Position numbers and translations under genes: made by a program. Below the pieces are notes generated by a model that was not told the origin of the DNA, ran no database searches, and saw nothing but the letters and a program-made list of their open reading frames with translations. From Actinoplanes sichuanensis (GTDB taxonomy: Bacteria; Actinomycetota; Actinomycetes; Mycobacteriales; Micromonosporaceae): a stretch of 64,000 bases of DNA. Positions 29,949-43,961 of the stretch are shown here, in pieces (position 1 is the first letter of the stretch; each line of letters begins with the position of its first letter). The stretch covers positions 4,340,001-4,404,000 of the forward strand of contig NZ_AP028461.1 of assembly GCF_033097365.1 (NCBI RefSeq), in the 5' to 3' direction.

Positions 29949-30047
29949 ATAGCGTATTGGAGCGCGCGATGAAACTGCAACGCCGTCCCGAGAAACACCT
30001 GGGGGCGATCCTCCTGCGACGATCACGGATCCATCCATCACGGGGTA

Positions 30048-30486
30048 GGGCAGCAGGGGCGGCGGGCCCCCTGCTGCCGGGACCCGCCGCGGCGGTACGT
30101 TGTGTCATCGGTCGTCGGAGGGAGAGTGTCGGATGGGAACCCGCACCGAGATCGCGGCGCTCGATCCGAACGCCGACCTGGCCCGCGCCGACTCCCTGGC
30201 CAGGGAGATCTTCGCTGACATCGCCAACAAGTGGGCGCTGTTGATCATCGAGTTCCTCGGGCAGCGAACGATGCGGTTCGGTGAACTGCGAGACGAGATC
30301 GGCGGCATCAGCCACAAGATGCTCACCCAGAACCTGCGAATGCTCGAACACAACGGCCTGGTCGAACGCACCGTGCACCCCACGATCCCGCCCCGCGTCG
30401 AATACACCCTCACCGAGGCCGGCGACGCGCTACGCGCGGTCGTCGACGGCATGTGCGGCTGGACCCAGACGTTCCTGCCCCACATC
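30048..30486 (+). repeat. Direct repeat copy 1 (HxlR gene plus upstream region)
   Basis: This segment and 38490-38930 are nearly identical, in the same orientation, about 8.4 kb apart. I count about a dozen single-base differences across roughly 425 aligned bases, most of them silent. The repeat includes about 75 bases upstream of the HxlR start. Copy 1 continues into the natural 3' end of the gene; copy 2 does not. Confidence 0.85.
30049..30078 (+). promoter_or_regulatory. Hairpin in the leader/upstream region of HxlR copy 1
   Basis: GGCAGCAGGGG (30049-30059) and CCCCTGCTGCC (30068-30078) are perfect complements around an eight-base loop, 55 bases before the HxlR start codon. In copy 2 the left arm is shortened to GGCAGGGG, so the fold is weakened there. 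It could be a terminator of upstream transcription or part of the leader. Confidence 0.4.
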
Positions 30487-32058: not shown

Positions 32059-32557
32059 ATGTCCGACCACAGGGATAGATATACGTAATTCTCGGAGCGC
32101 GAGGCCTGGAAGGCTCCCTCGACTCCCAGCGTGAGGGGCTGCTCCTGACACTCGAAGGTCTCGACGACGCGGCCCGAACGACCGAAAGCGCTAGCTCGTT
32201 GTCGCTGCTCGGGCTCGTCAAGCAGGCCGCCACCTGGGAGCGCCGCTGGTTCCAAGTCATCGTGGCCGGACGCTGTCTCCCGAGAAGTGGCCCGCCGTCA
32301 TGCCTGAGCCCCGCGACGCCGACATGATGGTCAACGAGAGCGACGCCGTGGACCACTGGGTCGCGTACTACCGGGAACAGATCAAGGAATCCCGCGCCAT
32401 CGTGGCCGCGATAGATCTTGATATCCCGTGCGCGCGGAAAGACATCATCGAGTGCAACGTGCGCTACGTCCTGCTCCACATGATCGAAGAGCCTGCCCGT
32501 CACGGCGGCCCCGCGGACATCATCCGCGAGACCCGCGACGGCACCCGCCAAAGCTGA
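32059..32557 (+). pseudogene. DinB/DUF664-family protein, frameshifted
   Basis: Reading from ATG 32059 stops after nine codons. A second frame gives GLEGSLDSQREGLLL and then SLLGLVKQAATWERRWF. After a shift near 32280 a third frame gives KWPAVMPEPRDADMMV and RYVLLHMIEEPARHGG to a stop at 32557. These pieces are the ordered parts of a DUF664 protein (metal-binding DinB fold, related to thiol-dependent enzymes). An intact member is at 51638. Two frameshifts make it a pseudogene. The rest of 31631-32892 holds no gene. Confidence 0.7.
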
Positions 32558-32892: not shown

Positions 32893-35800
32893 CTACCAGT
32901 ACAGTTCTCCACGCATATCGACTGCTTTGTAGAAGCCCCATGCGCTGAGTTTGCAGGCATCTCGATAGCCGTCGGCGGTCGGCACGCTGGCGCACAGGTT
33001 GTTCGCATCCCAACCGAGGAGCCTGTCGATTACACCTCTGTCCCCCCAGCTGCTGTGGTTGCGGTATCCGAAGTCGTGACGCTGGCAAGCGCTATGGAAG
33101 AACGCCGCGTTGAACCTCAGAACCTTGTCGACCTCGGGTGGCACGCTGCATCCATCGTCATTCCAGTTGAAGTTGTACTCCGACCACTCACCGCCGCTTT
33201 TAGCCTTGGCGGTAGACCAGGCGGAATACGAGTCACTCGTCGCAGCGGTCAGCAGGTGATAGGCCTGCGCCTTCGTCTTGGGCATGAAGATCGAGGACAC
33301 GTCGGAATCGGTTTCCCCTCCTTCGTTGACGACGCGGACCTTGAATGAATACGTCCCTTCCAGGAATTCCTTGACGAACTCGTAATTCGACTCCATGTCC
33401 TCGCGAAAGAGTTCCTTCCAACCGTGCCCGTTGCTCACATACAGCCGGTAGCGGACATATTTCTCCGGGTTCTTGTTCCACTCCGCCTTGACACTGTTGA
33501 CGATCATGTCCGCGAACGAGTCTCGTGTCAGTTTCAGGCCGGTCGGTTTGGAAGGTTTGGGAACAAACGGTGTGGCGGTGACGATGTTCGACGGGGTGGC
33601 GTCGCCGGCGGCGTTGGTGGCGATCACTCGGAACTCGAACTGCTGGAAGTTGGCGATGGCCTGCACGGTGAAGGAGGCATTCGGCACCGCAAATCGAAGC
33701 CGGTTCCAGGTGGCGGCGTTCTTTGCCCGGTACTCGATCCAGTATCCCGCGTTCGCGGTCGAACTCCTGGTCCATGTCAGTTTGACCTGCGCGTTGCCGG
33801 CTTCAGCCGACAGGCCCGACGCGGGCTGTGGGGGTAGTGGCTTGGGCGTGCCGCTGATGATGTTGCTGGGTGTGCTGGACAGGCCCCGGAGGTTCTGTGT
33901 CCAGATCCGGAATTCGTACTGGGTCGCGTTGCGCAGCAGCTTGACCGTGTACGAGCAGCACCCCACCGCGAGGTCGAGCTGGTTCCAGGTACCGCCGACC
34001 GGACGCATCTCGACCACGTAGTTGACCGCGCTGGTGCTGCTGGCGCCCCAGAGAAGAGTGATTTGCCCGTCACCGATGCCGTTCACCTTGAGGTTGCCGG
34101 GTGCTGCGGGCAGGGCCGGCATCGGCTTCGCTGTGGCGGGCTCGGTGGCCTTGCTGGTACCCGCCCATGTCGAGGCGGTCACCTTGAAGTCATATGTGAC
34201 ACCGTTGACGAGGTAATCAGCGGTCATGGTCGTGCCGGTGATCGACAGGGGCAGCAGCTTCCAGGACTCGCCGGCCTTGCGTTGGTAGATGTTGTACGTG
34301 ACGCCGCTGTCGGTGCTGGCCAGCCAGCTGAGAACGACTTTGCCGTCGCCTGCGGTCGCGGTGAGTTTGCTGGGCGGCGCGACATTTCCGGTGGCCTTAA
34401 CCTGGATCGTCGACGTGGCCGGCCCTTCACCGCCCTGGTTCTCTGCGCTGACCTTGTACTCATAGATGTTGTTGATCTGCAGGTACTCGAGGTCGATCTC
34501 GGTCTTGCCGGTCGGGAAGGCGGCCTTCTGGAAAGCCTGGCCGGTCGTGACGTTGCGGTAGTGAACCCAGTAGTTGAAGCTGCCGGACGACGGGGCATCC
34601 CAGTCGAGGTGGATGGCGGCGCCGCCGCTGGCCTTACCGGTCAGGTTCTTCGGCGCTGTGGGCGGGGTGTACTTCGCCGTGGCGCCGGCCACCGCGGACT
34701 GAGGGCCGGCTCCAGTGGCGTTGGTCGCCGCGAACTTGTACTCGTACGCGTGGTTGTGGGTGAGGAACTGGTCGGTGAAGGTGCAGCAGCTGGTCACCGG
34801 GGCACCAAGCTTGACGAACGAGCCACCGGCCGTGGCGTCGCGGCGGTACACGTCGTACCAGAGGTTCTCGCCGGCGTTGGTCCAGGTCAGCTTGATCGTG
34901 CCGTCGGTCTGCGCGGCCGCGGCCAGCCCGGTCACCTGGGCGGGCAAGGCCTGGAATGGCTTGGCCTGCACCAGGTTGCTCTTGGCGGATTCGCCGCCCT
35001 GACTCGTGGTGGTCACCGCGAACTCGTAGGTATGGCCGTTGGCCAGGTATTCCGGCGTGAACGAGCAGCAGGTGGTGACCGGCAGCTGCAGCGCCTTGAA
35101 CGCCTCACCGAGGGTCACGTCCCGTTGGTACACGTTGTACCAGACGTTCGGTGTGGCGCTGGCCGTCCATTCGAGGCTGACCTGGCCGTTGCCCGCAGCA
35201 GCGGTGAGGCCGGTAGCCGCGGCCGGGACCGGGTACCCGGCGGTTGCCTGCGCCACCGCGGAAAGTGGCCCCTCGCCTCCGCGGTTGTCGGCGGACACCT
35301 TGAATTCGTACACGTGATTGTGGGTCAGGAACGCCGCCGTCATGGCCGTGCGGTCCGTTGGAACGCCCAGTTTACGGAATGCCTCTCCGGCGGTCGCGTC
35401 ACGCTGGTAGACCCAGTACAGGACCGGCTGGCCGACCGCAGCCCACGACAGCGCAATCGTTCCGTCCCCGTTGGCGGTGGCCGTTACCGTGGTCGGAGCA
35501 GGCGGCAGGCTATAAGAAGCCGTAGCCGAGGTGGTGAGGGAGGCCGGGGATGAGCCGCCGCCGTGCACGGCGACGACGTGGAACTCGTACTGGTGGTTGT
35601 GCTCCAGCCACTGCAGGTGCTGGCTGGTGGATCCCCTGCCCAGGCGGGTCAGGAAGGTTCGGGTGGTTTCCCCGGCGGTCACGTCGCGCTGATAGATCTC
35701 GTAGTTCCAGGCTTCCGGGACGGCCTGCCAGCTGAGCCGGATGGCACCGAGGGTGTCGGCGACCGCGGTAACCCGGGCCGGCGCGGGCGGCGCGGTAATG

Positions 35801-37194
35801 ACCGGGGTGGCGCTGGCGACCCGGGAGAAGGCGCTTTCGCCGGTGGCGTTGACCGCGGTCACCTTGAATTCGTAGGTGTTCTCGGTGGCGAGCAGGCCGA
35901 TGGTCTGCGATGTGCCGGTGATCGAGGAACTGGCCCGTACGAAGTGAGTCTGACCGGCGCTGGCATTGCGCTGGTAGACGTAGTAGCCGGTGGCGCCGCT
36001 GACGGCCTGCCAAGTCAGCGCCACGCCGCCGGCCGAGTTCACGGTGGCGTTGATCCCGGTTGGCGCGGCTGGGACGGCGGCCGGGTCCGGCGTGGCGGGC
36101 GGCCAGGCAATCTCCACGAAGCGCGGCCGGTAGATGCTGACGTCGGCGAACGTCCGGGTGTCTTCGAGCGTGTTCACGTTGTACGACATCAGGAGCTTGC
36201 CGCTGGGGGCCAGGTTAGGGTGCAGGTGGGCGTCGTAGCTGACGATCGGCTCACCCGGCTTTTGCTCCGGCGTGGTGAACAGGTATTTCGGCGCGTCGAA
36301 CGGCCCAACCGGTGAGGTGGCGGTGTAGATCGGGTACTGAGGGTCGAACAGGGCATTGTTCTCCTGCGTGGCCAGGAGATACTGGTTGCCGACCTTCTGC
36401 ACGCCGAACGCGGTGCCGACCCCGCTGAGAACCTTCGTGGCGTCGGTTTCCGTCGACGACCATGCCGAACCGGTCCAGAACTGCCAGGCCCCGCCGAGCC
36501 CGCCCGCAGGCACTCGCGCGACCTTCGCGAACTTGAGCCCTGAGGTCTGGTCGGTGCCGTACACGTAGGTGTAGGCGCCGTCCTCCAAGATGGCGCCGCC
36601 CCAGGCGTTCTTGGCGCTCAACGGCAGATCCGTGACGTTACTCAGGGTTAGGCTGGGCAGCGCGAACGTGGCCAGCGAAGTCCCGGTGATCTCCATTTCG
36701 AGATTGCCGCTGCCGACCCGCTTGTAGCGGTTGTAGAGGACCTTCAGCGATCCGTTCTCCACGGTCCCGTCGGCGACCCAGAAGAACTCACCGGCCTGGG
36801 CCGGTTTGACGAGTGCTTCGGGCGCCGCTGCGGTTCCACCATGGAGTGTGCTGACCAGTGAGTCACCGCTCTGTACGACGATCGTGTTGTTCACTAGGGG
36901 CGTCCCGGTGGGCCGGCTGCCGTCGGCGTTGACGGTGCCGAGGAACGTGTCGGAGAACAGCCATGCCGTGCGACCGTCCGGCAGTGGCACCGATGCCGTG
37001 GCATCCGCGCCGGTCCAATGGCCACCCGCGTTGCCGTAGGTGGTGAAGAGGTTGTTCAGCTGTCCGGCTACCGAGTTGTCGGCGGCGAACCCAGGCCCGG
37101 CGTCGAGCCCCTGGGCTATTCCTGCCACCGCGAGGACTACGGCGGTCGTGGCGGCCTTCCATCTAAACGCGACGGAGGATCTGATTCTGCTCAT
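32893..37194 (-). CDS. Giant secreted protein: propeller-like head, ten FN3 modules, phospholipase A2 tail
   Basis: A 1433-residue secreted protein. Residues 1-37 are a signal peptide. Residues about 40-370 look like the DUF4185/DUF5005 glycosidase-like beta-propeller (AWLFSDTFLG, MSYNVNTLED). Residues about 375-1310 are ten fibronectin type III modules, several with a repeated VYQRDATAGEAF core and LTHNHVYEFKV end, pointing to recent internal duplication. Residues about 1315-1433 match secreted bacterial phospholipase A2: NDDGCSVPPEVD (calcium loop) and SACQRHDFGYRN with the catalytic His-Asp pair. ATG at 37194 has no clear ribosome binding site. The enzyme should cleave the sn-2 ester of phospholipids outside the cell, with head and FN3 modules probably for binding or reach. 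Confidence 0.85.
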   Translation of the reverse strand: MSRIRSSVAFRWKAATTAVVLAVAGIAQGLDAGPGFAADNSVAGQLNNLFTTYGNAGGHWTGADATASVPLPDGRTAWLFSDTFLGTVNADGSRPTGTPLVNNTIVVQSGDSLVSTLHGGTAAAPEALVKPAQAGEFFWVADGTVENGSLKVLYNRYKRVGSGNLEMEITGTSLATFALPSLTLSNVTDLPLSAKNAWGGAILEDGAYTYVYGTDQTSGLKFAKVARVPAGGLGGAWQFWTGSAWSSTETDATKVLSGVGTAFGVQKVGNQYLLATQENNALFDPQYPIYTATSPVGPFDAPKYLFTTPEQKPGEPIVSYDAHLHPNLAPSGKLLMSYNVNTLEDTRTFADVSIYRPRFVEIAWPPATPDPAAVPAAPTGINATVNSAGGVALTWQAVSGATGYYVYQRNASAGQTHFVRASSSITGTSQTIGLLATENTYEFKVTAVNATGESAFSRVASATPVITAPPAPARVTAVADTLGAIRLSWQAVPEAWNYEIYQRDVTAGETTRTFLTRLGRGSTSQHLQWLEHNHQYEFHVVAVHGGGSSPASLTTSATASYSLPPAPTTVTATANGDGTIALSWAAVGQPVLYWVYQRDATAGEAFRKLGVPTDRTAMTAAFLTHNHVYEFKVSADNRGGEGPLSAVAQATAGYPVPAAATGLTAAAGNGQVSLEWTASATPNVWYNVYQRDVTLGEAFKALQLPVTTCCSFTPEYLANGHTYEFAVTTTSQGGESAKSNLVQAKPFQALPAQVTGLAAAAQTDGTIKLTWTNAGENLWYDVYRRDATAGGSFVKLGAPVTSCCTFTDQFLTHNHAYEYKFAATNATGAGPQSAVAGATAKYTPPTAPKNLTGKASGGAAIHLDWDAPSSGSFNYWVHYRNVTTGQAFQKAAFPTGKTEIDLEYLQINNIYEYKVSAENQGGEGPATSTIQVKATGNVAPPSKLTATAGDGKVVLSWLASTDSGVTYNIYQRKAGESWKLLPLSITGTTMTADYLVNGVTYDFKVTASTWAGTSKATEPATAKPMPALPAAPGNLKVNGIGDGQITLLWGASSTSAVNYVVEMRPVGGTWNQLDLAVGCCSYTVKLLRNATQYEFRIWTQNLRGLSSTPSNIISGTPKPLPPQPASGLSAEAGNAQVKLTWTRSSTANAGYWIEYRAKNAATWNRLRFAVPNASFTVQAIANFQQFEFRVIATNAAGDATPSNIVTATPFVPKPSKPTGLKLTRDSFADMIVNSVKAEWNKNPEKYVRYRLYVSNGHGWKELFREDMESNYEFVKEFLEGTYSFKVRVVNEGGETDSDVSSIFMPKTKAQAYHLLTAATSDSYSAWSTAKAKSGGEWSEYNFNWNDDGCSVPPEVDKVLRFNAAFFHSACQRHDFGYRNHSSWGDRGVIDRLLGWDANNLCASVPTADGYRDACKLSAWGFYKAVDMRGELYW

Positions 37195-37962
37195 TGCTTT
37201 GGGTCACTCACTTCGAAGGGTGGAAGTTGGCGGGGAGTTCGTCCCGAGATAGAGCGCGATGACAGATGCTCTCTACACGCCTCCGGTTTGTGTCGATAAT
37301 CCGAACAGCAACCGTCGTGGCTACTCTCAGGGCGGCTGCATTAGCGAATGGGCTTGTCCGCTCGACAGGGCGGGCTACGTCGTACTATCCGAGGATGATC
37401 GATGTCGTATACATCGGCCGGAGCGCTGATCCTTTTACCCGCTGTGCGGTTAGGTACCGGCGTTGTCGGGAAAATGGGTTCACCCCGGGGTCGCTGACGC
37501 GGTCCATCACCTCCAACCCATGCCCCCCATGCCCCCCATGCCGAGCGTCACCAGACGAGAGACTGACGGATCCGGTGCTGCGACTTGGGAAGATCCTTCA
37601 CATGACAACGAGATCCGACTACAAGGAAGTTCCAGAATCTGATCACGTGGAGATCGCCACAACAAGGGCCTGACCGACCTTCAGCTCTCAATAAGAACCA
37701 GGCGATGAAGCATTAGAGAAAATCGGTCTTAATCGGTGACTGAACCGCGAACGGCAAGCAGCAGGTGACGCGGTAGCGGCGCTCGGTTAACCTTCTTACG
37801 GGAGCCTGAGTCGGCAGCATGGGAGGGCGAGTCAGTAAACGCCTCCATGTGGCCTTGCATGAACGCCTCCTGGCTCTCGGTGAAGTAGACGCTTATCTGC
37901 ACTGTCCTCGGGCATCGGCTGGCGGGCCGGACGCACTCGACGGGCGCTGCCACTTGCTGAAA
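37195..37962. other. Intergenic stretch of about 770 bp
   Basis: It lies upstream of the giant phospholipase gene and is less GC-rich than the neighbours. It contains a short tandem of CATGCCCCC (from 37519) and no gene I can support; frames on both strands lack recognisable products. The promoter of the giant gene must be in its left part. Confidence 0.4.
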
Positions 37963-38079
37963 GACCCGTACGCCTGCGCGATCTTCGTCGGCCACGACGA
38001 GTACTGGGCCTCAGCGATGCGCGACACCGTCGACTCGTTCGTTGACGCCGGTGGGCACGTGGCCCGCTTCGGCGCTGAC
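37963..38079 (+). pseudogene. N,N-dimethylformamidase beta-subunit-like fragment
   Basis: The frame reads CAIFVGHDEYWASAMRD and then TVDSFVDAGGHVARFGA, which is the conserved GHDEYW...FVxxGGxxARF block of the large subunit of N,N-dimethylformamidase-like proteins. The sequence before and after it does not continue the family, so only this internal piece survives, in frame with the following gene. Confidence 0.6.
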
Positions 38080-38118
38080 AAGCCCGAAGACCTACAGCGT
38101 CCCGGAATACTGCTCCTC

Positions 38119-38490
38119 ATGAGTTATGACCTGGCCGTTTGGGAGGGGCCGCAGCCCACGACCGGCGCCGACGCTGATTCGACCTTCGAGCGTCTGTTCA
38201 GCGAATATGTCGAGGACGACCGGCCGACGGAACCGGTCGCATCCGTCGCCGCCTTCGTAGAGGCCCTTCTGGCCCGTTGGCCCGAAGACTCCGAGGACAG
38301 CCCGTACTCGGCGCATATCTTCGCCTCCGGATCGATCGCATACATCACCCTCAGCTACAGCCGGGCCGGCGAGGTGACCCTCTACTCAGCAGAACTGGCA
38401 GCCCGGTTCGGGCTTGTCTGTTTCGACCCGCAAACGGGCTGGTCGCGGCCCGACGCTGGCGGCGAACCCGCCGACCACGGCCGTCGATAG
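38119..38490 (+). CDS. Hypothetical protein, 123 aa
   Basis: ATG at 38119 begins MSYDLAVWEGPQPTTGADAD, the start of a small soluble protein family I have seen in many actinomycetes. Later parts EALLARWPEDSED and AELAARFGLVCFDPQ also fit. A hydrophobic strand followed by a FGLVCFDPQ end suggests an alpha/beta fold. No catalytic residues are recognised. No ribosome binding site is obvious; the relic upstream is in the same frame, which may confuse gene callers into extending it. It ends at the left boundary of HxlR repeat copy 2. Confidence 0.65.
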   Translation: MSYDLAVWEGPQPTTGADADSTFERLFSEYVEDDRPTEPVASVAAFVEALLARWPEDSEDSPYSAHIFASGSIAYITLSYSRAGEVTLYSAELAARFGLVCFDPQTGWSRPDAGGEPADHGRR

Positions 38491-38930
38491 GTCGGCAGGG
38501 GCGGCGGGTCCCCTGCTGCCGAGACCCGCCGCGGCGGTACGTTGTGTCATCGGTCGTCGGAGGGAGAGTGTCGAATGGGAACCCGCACCGAGATCGCGGC
38601 GCTCGATCCGAACGCCGACCTGGCCCGCGCCGACTCCCTGGCCAGGGAGATCTTCGCCGACATCGCCAACAAGTGGGCGCTGTTGATCATCGAGTTCCTC
38701 GGGCAGCGGACCATGCGGTTCGGCGAACTGCGAGACGAGATCGGCGGCATCAGCCACAAGATGCTCACCCAGAACCTGCGCATGCTCGAACACAACGGCC
38801 TGGTCGAACGCACCGTGCACCCCACGATCCCGCCCCGCGTCGAATACACCCTCACCGAGGCCGGCGACGCGCTACGCGCGGCGGTCGACGGCATGTGCGG
38901 CTGGACCCAGAAGTTCCTGCCTTCGCCGCG
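38490..38930 (+). repeat. Direct repeat copy 2 (HxlR gene plus upstream region)
   Basis: Same orientation and about 97% identity to 30048-30486. The match stops near 38930, inside the HxlR gene, where the sequence changes to the antisense of an alcohol dehydrogenase remnant. Recombination between the two copies would delete or loop out the 8.4 kb between them. Confidence 0.85.
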
Positions 38931-41997: not shown

Positions 41998-43377
41998 TCA
42001 GTGCGCTTTAGCGAGCACACGGTTGGTAGTCCTACCTTGCGGCGGGACGGTCCCGGTCTGACCGACGAGTGTCGTGCCGGGTTCACGTTTCACGGCCACC
42101 TGCCCGCGTACGCGGGTCTTCTGGTCGGCTCCACGTGCTGCCACCGGGCCACTCCCGGCGGTGTCGAACTCGGCCGCGAGGGCGGCAAGGTTGAGTGCGG
42201 CGTTGCGGTCGCGGTCGATGACCAGACCGCACGCTTCGCACTGGTATTCACGCTCGGACAGGGCCAGCTTGGTTTTCACCGTGCCGCATGCCGAACAGGT
42301 TTTGGAGGACGGATACCAGCGGTCGGCCACCAGCAGCCGGCCGCCGTTCCATCCGGTCTTGTAGGCCAGTCGGCGGCGGATCTCTGCTAACCCGGCGTCG
42401 GCGATGTGTCGGGCGAGTTTGCGGTTGGCGAGCATGCCGGTGACGTTGAGGTCTTCGACCACGATGGTGCCGTGCTCGCGGGCGAGGCGGGTGGTGAGCT
42501 TGTGCAGACCGTCACGGCGCTGGTTCGCCACCCGGGCGTGCGCACGGCCGAGGCGGGCCGCTGCCCGTTCCCAGCGCTTCGACGCCCGTCGACCGGTGCG
42601 CCGGTCCGGGCCGGTCTTACGCGACAGCGCCCGACCCAGCGCACGCATGCGCTGCTGCACGGCCACAAGGTGACGAGGGTTGTCGACCAGTTCGCCGGTC
42701 GACAACACCGCAAGGTGCTTGATCCCGACGTCCACACCGACCACCGATGTGGGCCTGGCCGGGACGCGTTCGGCGCGTTCGATCTCGATGGTGAAGGAGA
42801 CGTGCCAGCGCCCGCCGTCACGCCGCACCGTGGCGGACATGATCCGCGCGGTGCCCGCTTCGAGGCGGCGGGCCAGCTTGCGGGCCGACTCGTGCAGCTT
42901 CAACCGGCCCAGACGCGGGAGCACGACGTGCATGCGGTCCGGCTCGATACGGATCGCTCCGGTGGTGAACCGCACGGATGGTGAGGTGCGGCGGCGGGAC
43001 TTGAACCGGGGAAACCCGACCGGCCGCCCCGCACGCGTGCCCTTGCGGGAGTCGGCCCAGTTCTTCAACCCACGGGCGAGCGCGTCCAGGCCGGTATTGA
43101 ACGCCTCTTTGGACACCTCGCCCCACCACGGCGCCACCTCGGGCTTCGCGGCGTTCCACGCCTTACGCAAACCGGCCAGCGACCACGACAGCGACGGCGT
43201 CAACTGTTCGTCCGGCACACCGTACGAACGTTCCGCGCTCCGCTGGTCCATGACGGCCTTGACCCGAGCGAGTGCCCAGTTATGGGCGACCCGGGCCGCC
43301 CCGGCATGGGCGAGTACATCACGTTCCCGGCCCGGGTTGAGGTCGAGGGCGAACCGGTACGCCTGGATCGTCTTCAC
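41998..43377 (-). CDS. tnpB: TnpB RNA-guided nuclease of IS607 family
   Basis: A 459-residue TnpB with all RuvC residues in place: Asp 216 in VVGVDVGIKHLAVLS, Glu 308 in IVVEDLNV and the DRDRNAA motif at 388-394. The zinc finger CSAC (361-364) and CEAC (380-383) is intact. The N-terminal half is the Arg-rich recognition lobe. TnpB proteins are known to cut DNA guided by a transposon-end RNA, usually made from the tnpB 3' end and the adjoining right end. That RNA would here reach into the start of aac. The GTG at 43377 overlaps the tnpA stop (GTGA). The C-terminal 60 residues are the low-conservation tail usual in actinomycete members. Confidence 0.92.
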   Translation of the reverse strand: MKTIQAYRFALDLNPGRERDVLAHAGAARVAHNWALARVKAVMDQRSAERSYGVPDEQLTPSLSWSLAGLRKAWNAAKPEVAPWWGEVSKEAFNTGLDALARGLKNWADSRKGTRAGRPVGFPRFKSRRRTSPSVRFTTGAIRIEPDRMHVVLPRLGRLKLHESARKLARRLEAGTARIMSATVRRDGGRWHVSFTIEIERAERVPARPTSVVGVDVGIKHLAVLSTGELVDNPRHLVAVQQRMRALGRALSRKTGPDRRTGRRASKRWERAAARLGRAHARVANQRRDGLHKLTTRLAREHGTIVVEDLNVTGMLANRKLARHIADAGLAEIRRRLAYKTGWNGGRLLVADRWYPSSKTCSACGTVKTKLALSEREYQCEACGLVIDRDRNAALNLAALAAEFDTAGSGPVAARGADQKTRVRGQVAVKREPGTTLVGQTGTVPPQGRTTNRVLAKAH

Positions 43378-43961
43378 GCCGGTTCCTCGGTGGCAGCTTC
43401 AACAGCCCGCCGGGCACGGTTCGCGGCAGCGCGACGGCCGTACAGACGCGCACACAGACTCGTCAGGATCTCCGTCACGTCACGGACCAAGTCGTCATCG
43501 ACCTCTGCGGGGTCGACCACCAGCAGGCGACGACCCTGCGCGGTCAGCGCGGCCTCGACGTACTCGGCCCCGAAACGGGCGAACCGGTCCCGGTGCTCGA
43601 CCACGATCGTCGACACGGCAGGGTCACGCAGCAGGGCGAGGAACTCGCGGTGCCCGTCGAGCGCTGACCCGACCTCCGTGACCACCCGGTCGACGCCGAG
43701 TCTCTGCCCGGTGGCCCACACGGTCACCCGGGCGACCTGCCGATCCAGGTCCGGCTTCTGGTCGGCCGACGACACCCCGGCATACACCACGGTCTACCCG
43801 GCCCCGGCCGACGTTCCCGTGACCGGCTCACCGATCATGATGAGACGGCCGATCCGGTAAGTAGGAACGGGCAGCGTCCCGGCCGCGTAACGCCGACACG
43901 CTGTCGCGTACGAGATCCCGGTGGCCGCTGCCCATTCCTTCACATTCACGACGACAACCAT
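43374..43961 (-). pseudogene. tnpA: IS607-type serine recombinase TnpA, amber-interrupted
   Basis: From ATG 43961 one frame gives a MerR-like helix-turn-helix start (VKEWAAATGISYATACRRY), reaches TAG at codon 56 (43796-43794), and continues in the same frame as TVVYAGVSSADQKPDLDRQ, the serine recombinase domain with the catalytic serine. The usual sequence is YARVSS; here the conserved arginine is glycine. HRDRFARFG is the later active-site motif and is intact. A single base change probably created the stop, and the arginine loss is a second lesion. A restart downstream would lack DNA binding. The element can therefore probably not move by itself. Confidence 0.8.

Follow-up and report, generated by a model that had tools for sequence, protein, structure and literature searches.

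A predicted phospholipase A2 tip on a head-and-arm protein of Actinoplanes sichuanensis whose relatives exchange their C-terminal domains

The minus strand of a 64,000-nucleotide stretch of Actinoplanes sichuanensis DNA (contig NZ_AP028461.1; hereafter the window) encodes a protein in which a glycosidase-like head is followed by an arm of fibronectin type III (FN3) modules and by a tip that is, judged by its residues, a phospholipase A2 (PLA2)-type domain with an intact catalytic site. Relatives of this protein keep the head and the arm, and their C-terminal tip is swapped for other enzymes or for domains without a family label. The carrier thereby behaves like a polymorphic toxin; we do not class it as one because an immunity gene was looked for and not found. 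We give an even chance to the reading that the protein, which is predicted to be secreted, is an envelope-damaging effector whose head engages wall glycan and whose arm brings the PLA2 tip to membrane phospholipids. The gene and its parts are:

32893..37194, minus strand: whole gene, 1433 amino acids (aa) plus stop, a single open frame with an ATG start
37081..37194, minus strand: likely Sec signal peptide, residues 1-38, ending GFA-A, by reading of the sequence
36079..37083, minus strand: head, residues 38-372, a propeller related to DUF5005 and GH183
36949..37005, minus strand: Asp pair D64/D82 of the head, 18 residues apart, candidate nucleophile and acid/base
33295..36078, minus strand: arm of ten FN3 modules, about residues 373-1300, from Pfam and our own FN3 profile
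32896..33288, minus strand: PLA2 tip, residues 1303-1433
33025..33156, minus strand: PLA2 active site, D1347 (calcium site), H1373, D1374 and D1390, from alignment to 1FAZ

This layout bears out the first-pass annotation of the window, which had read a 1433-residue chain with a glycosidase-like head, ten FN3 modules and a PLA2 end: the chain is one open frame running from 37194 to 32893. Pfam fn3 matched nine stretches (204 bits) and the FN3 profile built here ten modules (372-1319), the tenth of which was weak (29 bits) and has the FN3 fold in the predicted structure model. The protein, which matched no family in an NCBIfam scan, is probably exported through Sec. The GC content at third codon positions (GC3) is 0.84 for the gene, 0.86 for the head and 0.75 for the tip. 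The host genome measures 12.14 Mb in one contig, and a second database copy of the protein, P0002, starts at residue 23. Around another PLA2 gene of this genome, 3.7 kb match Actinoplanes flavus at 82%; the best match of a second stretch is Phytohabitans suffuscus (10.9 kb at 75%), and a third has no match among the 44 PLA2 loci described below. In the same-genus genome G010 the carrier is 99.9% identical to P0082, whose source name is Actinoplanes octamycinicus.

The tip matched Phospholip_A2_3 (PF09056) at residues 1322-1427 with 48.1 bits against a cut-off of 29.4, and its predicted structure has the PLA2 fold; both the domain search and the structure prediction proposed for the C-terminal domain thus came out in its favour. 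In an alignment to 1FAZ, residues D1347, H1373, D1374 and D1390 correspond to D43 (which we take to belong to the calcium site), H64, D65 and D85 (whose roles we likewise assume), as expected from the earlier claim of an intact calcium site and His-Asp dyad. Secreted PLA2 of the Streptomyces violaceoruber type (PF09056; 1FAZ and 1KP4) differ in their setting. Among 44 loci of named genomes found with the PLA2 tip, the open frame measures 143-443 aa from stop to stop in 41, whereas here the domain ends a chain of 1433 aa. The PLA2 locus L022 has an open frame of 735 aa, and in Kribbella sandramycini (L016) and [Actinomadura] parvosata (L023) the domain lies within RHS-repeat proteins, near the C-terminus in the former and at the C-terminus in the latter.

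Our family sample comprised 155 non-redundant proteins (P0001-P0156 minus P0002, window protein included), taken as the best 120 of 484 and the best 120 of 279 matches, each from about 7990 candidates, plus P0003; several look like fragments or frameshifted proteins (e.g. P0079, P0126, P0134). Their source names include Micromonospora, Actinoplanes, Catellatospora, Dactylosporangium, Hamadaea, Kribbella, Nocardioides, Lentzea and Nonomuraea. We clustered the 136 tips of at least 60 aa and left out 19 shorter ones. The commonest type was an HExxH zincin-like tip (30), followed by PLA2 (26), a beta type called 'CF' (19), CHAP (14) and Ig-like tips (12). The remaining clusters were Ntox44 (3), SGNH (2), two fragments with a subtilase, seven singles, and clusters of 8, 4, 4, 3 and 2 members without a family label. 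The names zincin-like (from HExxH), 'CF' and Ig-like were assigned by eye, and Pfam gave no significant match for representatives of these three types (tips of P0008 and P0022 included). HExxH was present in 30/30 zincin-like tips, with an ANLYWGGY-like motif further on in many. The 26 PLA2-tipped proteins answer the earlier proposal to search for other head-FN3-PLA2 chains. Two of them, P0043 and P0118, have identical tips. The active-site His and D1374 are kept in all 26 and D1390 in 25, and the D1347 position is divided evenly between Asp (13) and Asn (13).

Some members carry a further domain, S8 in 40 proteins, cutinase in five and M4 in one. Any of the five enzymatic tip types occurred in 0/46 of these proteins compared with 75/109 of the others (Fisher p 7e-18, relatedness ignored). 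Independent contrasts on the tree gave six pairs only, with a median p of 0.125, and a rule of one enzyme per chain is therefore no more than suggestive.

The exchange of tips was followed on a tree of 129 heads, 16 of the 145 near-complete heads having no tip label. The tip label requires 30 changes on this tree, compared with a least possible number of 12 and a mean of 87.6 after shuffling (0/200 shuffles as low); PLA2 alone required at least seven changes on starred branches. Closely related pairs showed where the change falls. P0014 (PLA2) and P0018 (zincin-like), both named Micromonospora, have heads that are 90% identical and retain high identity to about residue 1380, from where similarity is lost. 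The same loss begins at about residue 1300 in P0031 (Ntox44) and P0037 (Ig-like), with heads 83% identical. In both pairs examined, one or two FN3 modules at the end of the arm are lost from the region of similarity together with the tip. Heads are swapped as well as tips, since Ntox44 in genome G007 (L082) stands behind an SGNH-type head (by eye) and a similar FN3 arm, and since P0003 combines SGNH domains, FN3 modules and PLA2. Toxin domains of the family are thus shared with other delivery chassis, PLA2 with RHS proteins and Ntox44 with the SGNH-type head and FN3 arm.

Exchange of C-terminal domains behind a constant N-terminal part is the pattern that the consulted part of the polymorphic toxin survey describes (Zhang 2012, PMC3482391), where Tox-PLA2 and Ntox44 are listed as toxin domains; both Tox-PLA2 motifs given there, DxC[ST] and CxxHxxxYxN, fit the window chain. 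The window protein differs in its enzyme-like head and in the lack of a detected immunity gene, and the words fibronectin and FN3 are absent from that part of the survey. TANFOR toxins of Bacteroidetes, as far as the consulted part of PMC7073777 describes them, also have an N-terminal head, often FN3 modules and swappable C-terminal toxins. They differ in head and phylum, in a link to the type IX secretion system and in a demonstrated cognate immunity family, and that part never uses the word phospholipase. We found no description of the present chassis of head and FN3 arm in the open-licence papers searched.

The arm is a conserved part of the chassis, ten being the commonest number of modules in the family sample (80/155). 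The first-pass annotation had ascribed the repeated motifs of the modules to recent duplication, which our data do not support: modules of the window protein share at most 51% identity with one another, each shares 44-86% with its positional counterpart in P0005, and Tandem Repeats Finder detected no DNA repeat. We conclude that the array is old, because module positions are conserved across species while identity within the chain is low.

The head is predicted to fold like the GH183 arabinanases, as a five-bladed propeller related to EndoMA1. The whole protein scored 32.7 bits with DUF5005 (cut-off 29.6) and 30.9 with DUF4185 (below the cut-off of 39.5); for the head alone the scores were 39.9 and 34.7, again above and below the respective cut-offs. 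The pair D64/D82 is invariant in 145/145 near-complete heads, and its spacing of 18 residues equals that of D33/D51 in EndoMA1 and of D170/D188 in DgGH4185b. According to the parts of PMC10509167 and PMC10115798 consulted, EndoMA1 has the D33/D51 pair and an essential Glu243, and in DgGH4185b a change of the matching Glu broadly left activity. D64 and D82 are both aligned in 4HBS (title: putative hydrolase), whereas D33/D51 of EndoMA1 are not opposite them in the sequence alignment or in the structure rows. The window head is nearer to 4HBS than to EndoMA1, and differs from the GH183/DUF4185 endo-D-arabinanases in its sub-threshold DUF4185 score and in its lack of the third carboxylate and of Arg198. 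As the probable ligand or substrate of the head we suggest a furanoside glycan of another cell, which may resemble arabinan.

Searches of the own genome with PF13810 (below cut-off) and with the head query A1 each gave the window head as the single match. DUF2961 (GH172) gave none there, and none in the control genomes either. The head profile matched in 44/121 genomes of the order (E up to 0.001), many matches being partial; phage records held no relatives of the head and plasmid records six, all below 40% identity. In one genome (G135, L085) the head stands alone, in an open frame of 368 aa whose start resembles a signal peptide, and three genomes of the same genus code as G135 (G128, G149, G156) have similar short head frames of 361-427 aa. 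A 20,955-aa open frame from a different family of the order contains two head-like domains (L083, G119:C82:42000-56000).

If the protein is an envelope-damaging effector, the chain would leave the cell through Sec, the head would engage wall glycan, the arm, presumably a spacer, would span the distance to the membrane, and the PLA2 tip would hydrolyse membrane phospholipid and so probably damage the target, which is likely to be another bacterium. The first-pass annotation had likewise proposed an effector, aimed at other cells or at host or fungal membranes. Its proposal stands in so far as the architecture, the exchange of tips and the occurrence of this PLA2 family in RHS proteins speak for an effector; no immunity-like gene was found beside the carrier.

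Several observations weigh against this reading. In the sequence alignment, the column of EndoMA1 E243 holds Ala, Gly or Ser in 135/145 heads (A 75, G 35, S 25, N 6, E 3, T 1) and that of Arg198 holds Arg in merely 14/145, leaving the activity and the substrate of the head uncertain. Tip exchange is only occasional, given the strong clustering of tips on the head tree. Searching 100 genomes, 59 of them of the genus besides our own, with at most five candidates scored per genome, we found proteins with head and arm in at least 18 of the 59 (head covered, E <1e-60). We examined the end of one carrier from each of the 18 genomes, plus additional carriers in G019, G025 and G028: CHAP ends one in G010 and SGNH one in G019 (Pfam), many have no tip, others have domains without a family label, and none of these carriers ends in PLA2. 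The PLA2 matches that this search listed in other genomes belong to open frames of 167-320 aa. The dedicated immunity protein that the first-pass annotation had thought worth testing for did not turn up: beside the carrier there is no same-strand candidate among downstream open reading frames (ORFs) of at least 30 aa or gene-like ORFs of at least 60 aa on both sides. Directly after the RHS-PLA2 gene of L016 no immunity gene is called either, the next called gene, 136 bases on, being MreB-like by eye. Finally, saprophytes too commonly secrete enzymes assembled from mixed modules.

The main rival, possible if somewhat unlikely, is a scavenging exoenzyme that degrades dead biomass, its head and arm concentrating the phospholipase on wall debris and its various tips acting on various polymers in the manner of cellulase-like modular enzymes. 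It would fit the likely Sec signal as the only export signal, the missing immunity gene, the several classes of lytic enzyme among tips and extra domains (S8, cutinase, M4, CHAP, SGNH, PLA2), the stand-alone head of L085 and the three further short PLA2 genes in the own genome. Ntox44 tips and the presence of this PLA2 in RHS proteins, however, suit effectors better than feeding.

A more specific version of the effector reading, which we think doubtful as a whole, is an actinomycete wall-breaching weapon. Here an arabinanase-like head would open the arabinan layer of rivals, FN3 modules would form a boom of standard length, and each chain would carry one interchangeable warhead (phospholipase, peptidoglycan hydrolase, protease, esterase or Ntox44); an immunity protein would be lacking because the head limits attack to foreign walls.

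Self-display, in which the head would attach to wall glycan of the producer itself and the enzyme would point outward on the arm, is improbable. A long arm would suit display, and walls of Micromonosporaceae reportedly contain arabinose, but family members also come from Kribbella, Nocardioides, Nonomuraea and Lentzea, not all of which have arabinose-rich walls, and the catalytic-type Asp pair, kept in all 145 heads, is needless for anchoring. Least probable is a classical kin-directed polymorphic toxin with its cognate immunity protein encoded elsewhere, for which swappable C-terminal tips, known toxin domains among them and ORFs resembling membrane proteins (by appearance) after the G010 and G019 carriers speak, and against which stands the lack of immunity candidates beside the window gene and after L016.

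In this large protein family of actinobacteria, two so far separate subjects meet, GH183-like wall enzymes and polymorphic toxins, and the ligand of the head and the reason for the variety of tips can be predicted in testable form. Should the head act on arabinan walls, the family would offer modular enzymes, ready for use, against cell envelopes that resist breaching. Tip domains without a family label (zincin-like and several others) could be named by the company they keep.

Downstream of the carrier, the larger minus-strand ORFs were rejected as immunity genes for their weak codon structure (GC3 0.64-0.70). The sole gene-like downstream ORF, 85 aa on the plus strand (32300-32557) with good codon structure, presumably resembles the end of a DUF664 protein. 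Upstream, 37819-38490 holds a DMFA2_C piece (N,N-dimethylformamidase beta-subunit-like; PF20254 positions 172-214 of 374) in a truncated-looking gene. A direct repeat of 300 nt (30046-30345 and 38488-38787, 97% identical) covers the first ~60% of two HxlR regulator genes, and these copies flank 8.4 kb with the carrier gene. An island or insertion with an empty site was considered, and each flank was searched in 59 genomes of the genus (own included). No empty site could be shown because the matches listed contain no colinear flank pair: the flanks lie about 3 Mb apart in G044 and on different contigs in G041 and G052. Elsewhere, the large carriers of G028 and G038 (L070, L071) each lie beside a divergent or overlapping ORF that by eye resembles an XRE-type regulator. 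Further along the window, 41998-43790 holds a TnpB-type gene overlapped by an Rfam Transposase-2 RNA (RF03015, 67.6 bits) at 42025-42091, and the adjoining 138-aa ORF looks like a serine recombinase, giving the appearance of an IS607-type element.
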